Notes under the pieces: model-generated | What the model was told of the DNA's origin: nothing | Databases searched by the model: none | The model's input: only the letters and a program-made list of their open reading frames with translations | In this document: in pieces, positions 16,866 to 35,651 of the stretch | How positions within the stretch are numbered: position 1 is the first letter of the stretch | How the letters are laid out: every line of letters starts with the position of its first letter | NCBI GenBank assembly: GCA_039714795.1 | Contig: JBDLIP010000005.1 | Coordinates: forward strand, 1-36,448 | DNA: 36,448 nt | Direction: 5' to 3' | From: Pseudomonadota bacterium | GTDB lineage: Bacteria > Pseudomonadota > Alphaproteobacteria > JAGOMX01 | Program-made: the position numbers and the translations under genes

Positions 16866-16984
16866 TATACTCTCGTGAAATCAAAACCTCTAGTTTAATG
16901 ATAGCGAGAAGCGCGCAGTTTACAATTGTAAATGAGCACTTCGAGCGTATCAGAAAACAGAGGTTTTGATTTCACTTCAGTATA
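16866..16984 (-). repeat. 119-bp palindromic TA-bounded repeat, copy 2 (inverted)
   Basis: Second copy, in opposite orientation to copies 1 and 3, with the same length of 119 bp and the same TATA ends. It differs from copy 3 at three positions, all in the half nearest the 16984 end. The half nearest 16866 is identical in all copies. It sits 63 bases before the miaB start. Its right edge plus flank reads TATACT (16983-16988), a possible -10 box for miaB, though the matching -35 is poor. Confidence 0.85.
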
Positions 16985-30323: not shown

Positions 30324-30442
30324 TATACTGAAGTGAAACCAAAACCTCTGTTTCCTAATACGCTCGAAGTGCTCATTTACAATTGTAAACTGCGCGCTTC
30401 TCGCTATCATTAAACTAGAGGTTTTGATTTCACGAGAGTATA
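30324..30442 (+). repeat. 119-bp palindromic TA-bounded repeat, copy 3
   Basis: Third copy, in the same orientation as copy 1. Its final 60 bases are identical to the corresponding halves of copies 1 and 2. It lies between lpxL and the AmpG-like gene. The right-end TATA plus flanking bases forms TATAAT (30441-30446), a perfect -10 hexamer for the AmpG-like gene, though a matching -35 is weak. Insertion at TA dinucleotides is the simplest explanation for the shared TATA ends. Confidence 0.85.
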
Positions 30443-30477
30443 TAATCATTAGTGTATCAGTTACGGTGACCCATAGA

Positions 30478-31773
30478 GTGCAAACCTTATTAAATTCCAG
30501 CAGAATTTACCTTGAACGCCGGGTGTTTGGTGTTTTATTGCTTGGGTTTTCCAGTGGTCTTCCGTTTTTGTTGACACTAGGAACACTGCAAGCTTGGCTG
30601 GAAAGAGTTGGTATCTCAAAAACCACCATTGGTTTGTTCGCGCTTGCAACAGCCCCTTATGCCCTCAAATTTTTGTGGGCGCCTTTAACAGATCACCTAC
30701 CTATTCCCTATTTATCAAGCAAGCTGGGCTTAAAACGCAGTTGGCTCTTGTTGAGTCAGTTAACGCTTGCCCTTGCTTTGATGGGTCTTGGCACAACAGA
30801 CCCAGCTCAAAATATTGCCCATACGGCTTTTGCTACCTTTCTTGTTTGTCTGTGTGCGTCATTTCAAGATAATGCGATGGAGGCATACCGTATTGAAACC
30901 CTGAACGAAAAAGAAATGGGGCCTGGTGCAGGAGCATCCGTGCTCGGATTTCGCATTGGTATGTTGGTTTCAGGAGGGGGTGCGCTTTATTTGGCCGCAT
31001 ATTGTCCTTGGAAGGTTGTGTACGCGTTAATGGCTACATGTGTCAGCATTGGGATGGTTGCGACCCTGCTGATTCCAAATTCAGACCGAGAACGAACAAT
31101 AGCGTGCCAGCGGAAAAAGCCGCACCAAGCAATGTGGCCTGCCATTACATCTTTTTTACAAAACCAGGATTGGAAAATAATTTTGTTATTCATCCTTTGT
31201 TATAAGGTAGGCGATACCGGCTTGAACATGATGAGCATTCCCTTCTTACTTGAAATGGGATTTTCTAAACTAGAGATTGCCTCAATTGCCAAGACATTCG
31301 GTTTTTTTGCCATGGTTGCAGGCGGTTTTATCGGTGGGTTGCTGCTGCTGCATCTATCGCTTTTAAAAAATCTCGCCCTGGGTATTTCCTTATTAATGAC
31401 TTCTTCTGTGATGTTTATGATCCAGGCTGTTCTAGGACATGACACGACTTTTTTGATGTTAACGATGGGAGTTGAAAATCTTGCCTGTGGCATGAGTGCA
31501 GCTGCTCTGATTGCCTATTTATCGAAGTGTTGTCATGTCCCATATACAGCAACCCATTATGCCTTGTTTTCCTCCTTCAGCTCCGTGGTGCGTATAGGGC
31601 TTTCTGTAGGAGCAGGGTGGCTAGCTGATCAAGTTTCATGGATGACTTTTTATGGGATCATTGCAGTGGGTTGCTTGCCTGCTTTGATGTTATTGAGTCG
31701 ATTTTCCTTGCATTTTTATGAACCTAAGCGCAGTTCTCTTGCGTATGAGCAGAAAATTGTGCAAACCAGTTAA
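30478..31773 (+). CDS. ampG: AmpG-family MFS transporter (muropeptide permease-like)
   Basis: Inner membrane major-facilitator protein of the AmpG family, which imports anhydromuropeptides for cell wall recycling; some members in intracellular bacteria may have other substrates. About 12 hydrophobic segments are visible. RVFGVLLLGFSSGLPFLLTL, LQAWLERVGIS and GAGASVLGFRIGMLVSGGGA are family hallmarks. The start is uncertain: an upstream TTG at 30424 lies inside the 119-bp repeat, whereas GTG at 30478 (preceded by GGTGA) gives a typical N-terminus and about 431 residues. A decayed copy of its last codons lies downstream of cfa. Confidence 0.82.
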   Translation: MQTLLNSSRIYLERRVFGVLLLGFSSGLPFLLTLGTLQAWLERVGISKTTIGLFALATAPYALKFLWAPLTDHLPIPYLSSKLGLKRSWLLLSQLTLALALMGLGTTDPAQNIAHTAFATFLVCLCASFQDNAMEAYRIETLNEKEMGPGAGASVLGFRIGMLVSGGGALYLAAYCPWKVVYALMATCVSIGMVATLLIPNSDRERTIACQRKKPHQAMWPAITSFLQNQDWKIILLFILCYKVGDTGLNMMSIPFLLEMGFSKLEIASIAKTFGFFAMVAGGFIGGLLLLHLSLLKNLALGISLLMTSSVMFMIQAVLGHDTTFLMLTMGVENLACGMSAAALIAYLSKCCHVPYTATHYALFSSFSSVVRIGLSVGAGWLADQVSWMTFYGIIAVGCLPALMLLSRFSLHFYEPKRSSLAYEQKIVQTS

Positions 31774-31800
31774 TATCTACATGAAGGAGTGAGAGTCAAT

Positions 31801-33123
31801 ATGACTGCTATTCTATCCGATAAACGCTTGTCATCAGGTATACAAAGATGTTTTGAGCACTTATCCGAAACCTTACAAATTCCTATAAATGTCTCATTAT
31901 GGGGAACACCAACGATTCATCTTAGAGGCGCCTCTGCATCAGATTTGTCGATTACAATTAACGACAAGGGCGTTGTTGCGTCTCTCTTGAAAGGCCCATC
32001 TTTGGAAAACCTGCTGCGCCATTATGCTGCGGGAAACATTGTTCTTGAAGGCTCGAAAGACCTCATTACTCTTGGTGAAACTCTTCGAGAGCAGATTAAG
32101 AAAAAAGATCTAAAACGCTTAAAAAAATCTCTTTTTCTAAAAAATTTGTGGCCGTTCCTTTTTGTAAAATCTACCAAATCCTCTTTGAGGCATGAATATA
32201 CCGAAGATGAAACCGGATTTAATCAGAAAAAACGCGTCAATAAAGACTTTATTCAGTTCCACTATGATGTGAGTAATGAATTTTATCAGCTCTTTTTGGA
32301 CCCTGAAATGCAATATTCTTGTGGGAATTTCAAAAACTGGGATGAATCCCTAGAGCAAGCTCAGCAGAACAAGCTGGAGATGATTTGCCGTAAACTGCGA
32401 TTGAAAGACGGGGAGCGCTTTTTGGACATTGGCTGTGGATGGGGAGGTCTTGTATGCTATGCAGCTCAGCGCTATGGAGTTAAAGCCCATGGTGTTACCC
32501 TTTCCCAAGCTCAGTATGATTTTGCTCAAGAAAAAGTGAAAAGGCTGGGGTTGGAGGACAAAGTGACTCTTGAGATTCGAGATTATATAACCTTGGAGGG
32601 AACATACGACAAAATAGCCAGTATCGGCATGTTTGAGCATATTGGAGTCGACAATTTTCCTAATTATTTTAAGAAAGTCAGATCCCTCTTGCGAGATAAT
32701 GGGCTATTTTTAAATCATGCTATTGCACGCCGAACAAAAGTGAACAAGAAAAAATCGCGCCGGATTACCCCTGAAAAACATTTGATATTGAAATATATTT
32801 TCCCCGGCTCTGAACTGGCTCCTATTGGAGATTCTGTAGATTCAATGGAAGCCTATGGGTTTGAGATTCATGATGTGGAAGGATGGCGCGAACACTATGC
32901 GCTTACCTGTAAACACTGGTGCCAGCGTCTATCTAAGAATAAGGACAAAGCTATAAAATTGATTGGCAAAGAGCGGTATTTGATGTGGGTGACATATCTT
33001 GCCGGCGTATCTTTTGGATTTCACAGTGGGACGATTTTAATTTATCAAACTTTGGGCTCAAAAAGGGCCAAGGCAAAGGGACTTTCAGAACTTCCGCCAA
33101 CCCGGCAAGATCTTTATGGATGA
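31801..33123 (+). CDS. cfa: Cyclopropane-fatty-acyl-phospholipid synthase
   Basis: SAM-dependent enzyme that converts unsaturated acyl chains of membrane phospholipids to cyclopropanes. The N-terminal lipid-binding region is followed by the CFA signature FIQFHYDVSNEFYQLFLDPE at residues 150-169. The SAM-binding motif FLDIGCGWGGL is at 207-217, and IASIGMFEHIGVDNFPNYF follows. It has 440 residues. ATG at 31801 is preferred; a GTG at 31789 overlaps the Shine-Dalgarno AAGGAG (31784-31789). It lies 27 bases after the AmpG-like gene and is probably co-transcribed. Confidence 0.95.
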   Translation: MTAILSDKRLSSGIQRCFEHLSETLQIPINVSLWGTPTIHLRGASASDLSITINDKGVVASLLKGPSLENLLRHYAAGNIVLEGSKDLITLGETLREQIKKKDLKRLKKSLFLKNLWPFLFVKSTKSSLRHEYTEDETGFNQKKRVNKDFIQFHYDVSNEFYQLFLDPEMQYSCGNFKNWDESLEQAQQNKLEMICRKLRLKDGERFLDIGCGWGGLVCYAAQRYGVKAHGVTLSQAQYDFAQEKVKRLGLEDKVTLEIRDYITLEGTYDKIASIGMFEHIGVDNFPNYFKKVRSLLRDNGLFLNHAIARRTKVNKKKSRRITPEKHLILKYIFPGSELAPIGDSVDSMEAYGFEIHDVEGWREHYALTCKHWCQRLSKNKDKAIKLIGKERYLMWVTYLAGVSFGFHSGTILIYQTLGSKRAKAKGLSELPPTRQDLYG

Positions 33124-33142
33124 TTTTGATTGCGTACTCATT

Positions 33143-33202
33143 TTTTAAGAGCAAATGCGAGTTTCTCTTGCTTATGAGCCAAAAATTGTTCAAACTAACT
33201 AA
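33143..33202 (+). pseudogene. Remnant of the 3' end of an AmpG-like gene
   Basis: The bases 33157-33202 translate to SLAYEPKIVQTN then a stop, almost the same as the end of the AmpG-like gene (SLAYEQKIVQTS then a stop, 31730-31773). Similarity at DNA level extends upstream, with an internal stop at 33146-33148. This looks like the tail of a second permease copy left by tandem duplication and deletion around cfa. Confidence 0.7.
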
Positions 33203-33216
33203 TGTCAAACGATTGT

Positions 33217-33293
33217 CGGGGTGTAGCGCAGCCTGGTAGCGCGCCTGCTTTGGGAGCAGGATGTCGGGAGTTCAAATCTCTCCACCCCGACCA
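33217..33293 (+). tRNA. tRNA-Pro (TGG anticodon)
   Basis: A complete cloverleaf: the acceptor stem CGGGGTG pairs with CACCCCG (33283-33289), the D arm carries AGCGCAGCCTGGTAGCGC, and the anticodon stem CCTGC/GCAGG encloses the loop TTTGGGA with anticodon TGG. The T arm carries GTTCAAATC. The CCA end (33291-33293) is encoded. It reads proline codons CCN. Confidence 0.96.
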
Positions 33294-34242: not shown

Positions 34243-34911
34243 TTGTCAGCTCATCTTGAAATTGAAAAGAAATACCAAATCGTAGAAACAGACCTTGGAC
34301 CTCTGCTTGCTCAATTCGAATACGTCAGTGAAAAGCGCATCATAGATGAGTACTTCGACACTGTTGATGGCAAGTTTTACCAAGAGGGTATTTTCATTCG
34401 CATCCGCAATCAAAAAACACTGGATGTTAAATTCAACCCCGATCACTTGGGGCAAAGAGGCGTCCACGAGCATGTCTTTTGTGCTGAATATAGCTTTCAA
34501 GAACCATTTGCCAATCAAGACTTCAAAACGTTTGAAGCTTTGGGACAACTTATTGGGACTCAGCAACCTTTTAGCTCCAGCTTTTCTTCATTTCTCAAAT
34601 CAAACCAACTGGTTATACTCTTGCTGATCGACAAAATTCGTAAAACCTATAAACAAGGACACTTTGCCTTAGTTATCGATGCAATTGCGGGCTTGGGCAC
34701 GATTCTTGAGATAGAATATACGGGAAAGAATACGAATCCAGATGTTGAGCAGATTGTATCGGAAATCGATGAACTAATGCAGGAAGTGCCAACAGTTCCC
34801 TTAGCCACTGGAAGTTTCGAAATGCTTTTAAAAAAGCAAAATTTTGAGTTGTACAGAAAAGGTAAGTATCTGTTGGAAGAGGACAGAGAATTGGATAAGA
34901 CTGCTGCATGA
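34243..34911 (+). CDS. CYTH domain protein
   Basis: Member of the CYTH superfamily (class IV adenylate cyclase / thiamine triphosphatase fold), which binds triphosphates in a beta tunnel. The hallmark E-x-E-x-K is Glu6, Glu8 and Lys10 (LEIEKKY), followed by RIIDEYFDT, IRIRNQKTLDVKF and LEIEYTGK, charged residues expected in the tunnel. It has 222 residues. The start is TTG at 34243; there is no ATG in frame after the stop at 34225-34227. The substrate cannot be predicted. Its stop overlaps the next small frame by 4 bases. Confidence 0.82.
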   Translation: MSAHLEIEKKYQIVETDLGPLLAQFEYVSEKRIIDEYFDTVDGKFYQEGIFIRIRNQKTLDVKFNPDHLGQRGVHEHVFCAEYSFQEPFANQDFKTFEALGQLIGTQQPFSSSFSSFLKSNQLVILLLIDKIRKTYKQGHFALVIDAIAGLGTILEIEYTGKNTNPDVEQIVSEIDELMQEVPTVPLATGSFEMLLKKQNFELYRKGKYLLEEDRELDKTAA

Positions 34912-35144
34912 AAAAATTCCTTGCTCTCTCGTTTCTGCTTGTTGTTGCTCTTATTACCTCTGGCCACGCCGAAAGCAAGCAAGCAACGTGCTTTGCCGAT
35001 ATTGCTCAAGATTTTGCCAATGCTGACCAAGACACACTAGTCATTTTCAATTTTTTTGATGAAGAATCACGGAGCACTTGTTTGGCTTTAAGGCTGCTTT
35101 GCCAAGTCAATCTCTATCGGTTGTTCGGGGTAATTGCCTGCTAA
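34908..35144 (+). pseudogene. Truncated exported protein, possibly DUF2608-like (HAD-related)
   Basis: A 78-codon frame with a clear signal peptide (MKKFLALSFLLVVALITSGHA), then DIAQDFANADQDTLVIFNFF. The last part resembles the first catalytic strand of DUF2608/HAD-type proteins (expected DTLVIFDFDE), but the key aspartates are missing or shifted near a run of seven T residues. After about residue 55 the frame reads antisense to the NUDIX gene and loses family features, so it is probably an N-terminal remnant. It overlaps the CYTH stop by 4 bases. Confidence 0.42.
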
Positions 35145-35651
35145 GATATCTGGTAAATAATTTTTTAGCACCACAGGATAGATAATTTCATCATGATTAC
35201 TAATTTCCTCCAAGCTGAACCAACGTAATTCTTTGATTACCTGTTTTTCTGATTCCGTCAGGTTTTGTGTAGAGACAGACTTTTGTTGCGTGCGTGCCAC
35301 AATAAATTGCTGCTTGAGTCGGGTTAGGGTGCCTGAAAGTACAAGCTCAAACTCACCAAACCAAACAAGGGGGCCAAATTCTACATCATTTTCTTGCAAT
35401 CCAGTTTCTTCGTGCAGCTCTCGAATAGCGGCTTGCATTATAGATTCTCCTGGCTCAATTTCTCCGCCCAAAGGAAACCAGAACCGACCATTGTAAGTAC
35501 CATCCTTTGCAGTGGTTTTGGGATCATCTGCACACATTAACAACAGCTCGTTCTTTGGACTGAGCAGAAGAATTTTAACGCTATTGCGGGTAGGAATTTG
35601 CTTTTGGTTGGTACACATATTAGTTGACCACCGTCTATCATTCGGACTCAT
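35088..35651 (-). CDS. NUDIX hydrolase
   Basis: Nudix-family hydrolase that cleaves nucleoside diphosphate-linked compounds. The Nudix box is complete at residues 63-85 (G63, E69, R77-E78, E81-E82, G84; core sequence REL-HEETGL). It has 187 residues from ATG 35651, or 176 from ATG 35618 (MCTNQKQIP), which also has GGTGG upstream; the choice is open. It overlaps the acetyltransferase gene by 14 bases and is convergent with the truncated DUF2608-like frame. Confidence 0.88.
   Translation of the reverse strand: MSPNDRRWSTNMCTNQKQIPTRNSVKILLLSPKNELLLMCADDPKTTAKDGTYNGRFWFPLGGEIEPGESIMQAAIRELHEETGLQENDVEFGPLVWFGEFELVLSGTLTRLKQQFIVARTQQKSVSTQNLTESEKQVIKELRWFSLEEISNHDEIIYPVVLKNYLPDILAGNYPEQPIEIDLAKQP

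Follow-up and report, generated by a model that had tools for sequence, protein, structure and literature searches.

A decayed copy of the ampG gene end behind cfa, left by an earlier duplication or insertion of a gene in an alphaproteobacterial genome

Why should the end of a permease gene be found a second time, in altered form, on the far side of an unrelated lipid gene? This question is raised by the forward strand of the window (the whole stretch of DNA analyzed here, 36,448 nucleotides), in which a gene for an AmpG-family muropeptide permease (30424..31773; TIGR00901 subfamily, MFS_1), a gene of the cfa family for cyclopropane-fatty-acyl-phospholipid synthase (31801..33123), and a gene for tRNA-Pro (TGG; 33217..33293) follow one another. 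More specifically, the permease scored 411 bits against TIGR00901 (cut-off, 350) and remained below the cut-offs of the AmpG equivalogs NF008238 and NF008867. The cfa product matched the CMAS domain (PF02353) with 302 bits against a gathering score of 27, marking it as a putative synthase, and reached none of the NCBIfam cut-offs listed. The 3' end of cfa is complete, as homologues align up to residue 439 of 440.

The two gene ends form a direct repeat of 65 nucleotides (nt), 75% identical and spaced 1,429 nt apart. Copy 1 (31713..31777, forward strand) takes in the final 61 bases of ampG plus 4 bases beyond its stop codon. Copy 2 (33142..33206, forward strand) begins 18 bases past the stop codon of cfa, the point at which the similarity ends, and sits between cfa, close upstream, and the tRNA-Pro gene directly downstream. 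The best gapped local alignment recovered exactly this stretch. In the same register, ungapped blocks upstream of the repeat (31640-31709) were identical at 1 to 5 of every 10 positions and those downstream (31780-31829) at 1 to 2 of 10, and alignment around both copies showed that no permease similarity survives beyond the 65 nt.

As a stretch this short might resemble another by coincidence, the ampG end was aligned locally with the 3 kb that follow it, and the resulting score of 53 was compared with three controls. None exceeded 34: the maxima were 31 for 1,000 mononucleotide shuffles of the ampG tail, 34 for 3,000 first-order Markov sequences, and 31 for 620 real 100-mers taken from other parts of the window. 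These controls refute a chance match, and the roughly 25% difference between the copies is not what misassembly would be expected to produce, so that similarity by chance or through an assembly artefact can hardly be entertained. Consistently, the assertion of the preliminary description that the tail after cfa mirrors the tail before it was borne out, the similarity extending past the last 40 bases of the gene to 65 nt.

Within the repeat, a core of 39 bases including the stop codon can be read in both copies, as SLAYEQKIVQTS-stop at the end of ampG (31735-31773) and as SLAYEPKIVQTN-stop, in frame, in copy 2 (33164-33202). The two cores differ at seven positions, of which five are third, two are second, and none are first codon positions, a third-position bias that is weak (binomial P = 0.045) and that hints, as far as codon positions can tell, that both tails diverged while coding. 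The coding capacity of copy 2 for a permease has been lost: only the last 12 to 15 codons can still be read, an ATG at 33155 in frame with the core opens a peptide of only 15 residues (to 33202), a TAA stands in frame upstream of the core at 33146, and there is no longer reading frame. Similarity above background thus coexists with lost coding capacity for the protein.

That short frame, started by ATG and kept open across the core, is what a functional reading could point to, in which the repeat would serve as a gene for the 15-residue peptide, as a recombination site, or as a promoter or RNA element for tRNA-Pro. Some integrative elements re-encode a gene end at their recombination site, and the two repeats here flank exactly one gene. 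Against such a role, cfa is the sole sizeable plausible gene between the copies, where neither the open reading frames nor a domain search revealed an integrase; copy 2 carries no promoter-like or terminator-like consensus, and the matches in the region do not exceed those in shuffled sequences; shuffled versions fold as well as the intergenic RNA itself (z-score, -0.05); and apart from the tRNA nothing in the window matched an Rfam family at gathering score. A degenerate motif made from the tail occurred twice in this genome, both times at this locus, and was absent from 384 other genomes of the class (as from the 7 others of an earlier search) and from viral contigs, which likewise speaks against a maintained function. 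We therefore regard a functional repeat as improbable. Because it has no longer frame, no notable fold, and no relatives, 33142-33206 is best read as a non-functional, dead 3' remnant of ampG; that it derives, in decayed form, from the end of such a gene is well supported. A search for a third copy in the genome gave, as the best further match to 33130-33216, only 19 nt at 95%, and the tail was absent from all 30 AmpG protein ends inspected.

The frequency of such scraps was assessed by surveys of gene ends. Among 113 AmpG gene ends followed by 300 or more bases of sequence (the window included, and several being one gene counted twice or more), the window ranked first, followed by locus L140 with a score of 40 and locus L011 with 39; the latter is a gapped match of G+C-rich stretches, which we took as chance. 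A sample from the same genome, made up of the window, 14 kb of contig C23, and 20 stretches of 20 kb each, contained 298 gene ends, of which 3 recurred downstream at a score of at least 44, namely, those of the ampG described here, of a large gene trailed by decayed partial copies of its own 3' end, and of a gene with a heptamer simple repeat; none of 302 mid-ORF controls did so. For the larger ORFs at 80 loci from a wider contig collection, 1 tail in 603 reached 44 (at L146, and not of ampG), as did 3 of 527 mid-ORF controls, all in L146. Gene-end scraps are therefore uncommon yet not unique, and at a score of at least 44 no excess was seen at ampG, the ampG tail of L140 falling below this cut.

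Two routes could have left an ampG end behind cfa, and they fit about equally well. Our best explanation, to which we would give close to an even chance, is homology-facilitated illegitimate recombination that brought in cfa and left the ampG remnant. Under this explanation, the lineage would have gained cfa on a DNA fragment beginning inside a related ampG allele; the shared sequence would have let this fragment pair with the resident ampG, and its other side would have been joined near the end of the resident gene by illegitimate recombination. The outcome would be one intact ampG with the incoming tail, then cfa, with some 60 terminal bases of the resident ampG displaced downstream towards the tRNA. 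The acquisition of cfa, the order of these events, and the relative age of the copies are our inference; the repeat, its place right after cfa, the absence of a function signal in the tests applied, and the patchy distribution of cfa are observed. In favor of such an insertion, the repeat is real and its motif was found only here, the similarity breaks 18 bases behind the cfa stop, where copy 2 begins, a single event yields the layout, and five of the seven core mismatches fall at third positions, an argument that is weak and that the duplication route would predict equally. Recombination of this kind was invoked for 3' ends shifted downstream at type VI secretion system (T6SS) loci of Vibrio cholerae and is, according to the authors of that study, rare (PMC5361080).

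Acquisition of cfa can be weighed against its distribution. The gene had no match at an E value of 1e-10 or below in the two other genomes of the same order that were compared (G001 and G002, 87% and 91% complete). Among the matches listed from 384 other genomes of the class, those in nine genomes reached from residue 14 or earlier to residue 439 (38 to 60% identity), one further match, to the catalytic part, started 159 bases from a contig end, and the remainder covered the catalytic part only. Its occurrence in the class is thus patchy, and since it was also not found in the two genomes of the order, cfa may have been acquired by this lineage. A one-step gain would explain both this patchiness and the clean position of cfa between two tails. 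On the same side of the argument, no ampG match lay within flanks of up to ~1.5 kb around the 10 nearest cfa homologues. Against it stands the absence of a donor with an ampG-cfa order among 114 other AmpG loci, as well as a composition of cfa that is not clearly atypical: the GC content (0.411) is the second lowest of 20 window genes, but the codon distance (0.277) is mid-range (0.178 to 0.375), so that foreign composition was set aside as not clear. Plasmids offered no close mobile source, each of the 298 records with a cfa match being below 60% identity.

The other route, proposed in the preliminary description, is a tandem duplication of ampG, in which cfa either lay between the two copies or entered at a later time, and a subsequent near-total deletion of the second permease. 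We hold this to be quite possible, if short of an even chance. Of the 58 other genomes searched, 2 do have adjacent AmpG matches (G008, contig C1, and G056, contig C31), and on contig C18 (L193) of the genome studied here a large gene precedes a tandem series of decayed copies of its 3' part. Likewise, a frameshifted ampG 3' fragment of ~250 nt at L140 fits decay in progress, but it equally fits a one-step insertion. The route requires more than one event, neither a 5' nor an internal part of a second permease turned up, the similarity ending 18 bases past the cfa stop, and the ampG-cfa-ampG order was found at none of the 114 other AmpG loci. The duplicated and decayed ampG end of the preliminary description is accordingly retained, whereas the deletion of a second permease from a tandem pair would be one of two nearly equal possibilities, as no similarity extends beyond the 65 nt.

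Relatives gave further information on both routes. Across 115 AmpG loci, counting the window and the C23 locus of the same genome, cfa was nearby in the window only, and two AmpG ORFs were present at one locus only (L023, from G008). The search for the ampG-cfa-ampG order in relatives suggested by the preliminary description thus came back empty, with neither this order nor cfa in the flank at any of the other 114 loci within the flanks examined (~1.5 kb for 29 and up to 6 kb for 80, several genes being counted twice or more). Two adjacent AmpG matches, the lack of which in relatives would by its own terms have counted against it, do occur in G008 and G056; both genomes are more distant than those of the same order, and one member of the G008 pair was reported with two TAA codons inside. 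Neither this genome nor the same-order genomes G001 and G002 contained two or more adjacent full permeases, the G001 gene being cut at a contig end. The idea that the locus once held an array of ampG genes found no backing either, since the only other AmpG found in this genome, on C23, is ~37% identical and ends in a different tail.

More specifically, G002 carries one distant AmpG (32 to 35%), and G001 an ampG fragment that is 72% identical over 50 residues and cut by the contig end (C247:4669), the remainder of which was not found in that genome. Because this gene breaks off there, G001 does not disclose a cfa-free state of the locus. In G001, G002, G007, and G021, tRNA-Pro lies among other genes, and a tblastn search found none of nine window proteins in those stretches. 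With tRNA-Pro in such other company, an ancestral adjacency of ampG and the tRNA gene is unproven. Scanning the wider contig collection with a single AmpG protein returned 26 pattern matches, none a relative, while a scan with a profile of nine AmpG sequences provided the best 80 of 571 relatives, which are too distant (best identity, 48%) for the history of the tail to be read from them.

Gene remnants in the form of 3' pseudogene fragments are known to result from tandem duplication and decay. The remnant described here resembles them in being a partial copy near its intact parent without a usable frame of its own, and differs in comprising only the last ~61 bases and in being separated from its parent by the unrelated cfa. 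As a scar left in the genome by an earlier duplication or insertion of a gene, the feature is an ordinary one. The locus documents a single rearrangement by which a gene for membrane lipids came to stand between those for a wall-recycling permease and a tRNA, and shows on a small and checkable scale how a scrap can be left behind when a gene is gained or duplicated; the general picture is unchanged by it.

PMC5361080 also describes displaced 3' ends together with orphan immunity genes at T6SS loci of V. cholerae, and orphaned 3' regions at Rhs loci. In common with these, as portrayed there, our locus has an upstream homologous anchor, a new module, and resident 3' material downstream; in contrast to them, its cargo is a lipid-modifying enzyme, its remnant does not work, and no donor is known. 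In the available parts of PMC5814848, PMC2635572, and PMC2408715, in each of which the word AmpG occurs once, an arrangement of ampG, cfa, and a remnant is not described.

A similar layout was observed at L140:3756-6215 (JALOOY010000003.1, Thermodesulfobacteriota), where an intact ampG is followed by two genes that we read, from their sequences, as PIN-domain toxin-like and antitoxin-like, and then by the ampG 3' fragment, whose best blocks are 88 to 91% identical and another 77%. Both loci therefore share the order of intact ampG, other genes, and decayed ampG 3' fragment. They differ in phylum and in cargo, and the L140 remnant is longer and less diverged, its aligned part ending before the stop codon. 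The ampG 3' end might be a repeated docking point, at which incoming genes bring a new permease tail with them and leave the resident one downstream; the toxin-antitoxin-like pair of L140 and cfa in the window would then be two independent cases of it. We consider this very doubtful, and lowered our estimate of it slightly because of the lack of an excess at ampG at scores of at least 44.

Several other repeats and truncated features were noted. A near-palindromic element of 119 bp (TATACTGAAGTGAAA...TTTCACGAGAGTATA) lies at 30324-30442, with further copies at 16866-16984 and 1523-1647. This genome contains at least 40 copies (40 were scored out of 167 first-look candidates), whereas G001 and G002 yielded no match at an E value of 0.01 or below. 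Folded as RNA, it forms a single long hairpin (z, -8.8), and TATAC and GTATA ends were counted by eye in 22 of 29 distinct sequences (30 loci). It looks like a MITE-type element, possibly of the IS630/mariner kind. One copy abuts ampG and holds its listed TTG start; because this start falls within a repetitive element, the true start of ampG is probably further downstream. On contig C18 (L193:1-3966), partial copies of the 3' end of the large gene, which we read as an NTPase/TPR gene, stand in tandem behind it, and one of them still ends in the same NPGYYILLPF-stop as the gene. On the same contig (L193:8938-11139), arrays of the heptamer TCAGAGG/TCAGAAA and its complement flank a gene that we read as ATPase-like, and lengthen the frame of the preceding gene into a repeat tail of the QRSEVRGQ type. 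Finally, an ORF of the window at 34908-35144 (78 aa, with a signal-peptide-like start) terminates where it overlaps the 3' end of a convergent ORF that we read as NUDIX-like (35088-35651), and may be a truncated gene.
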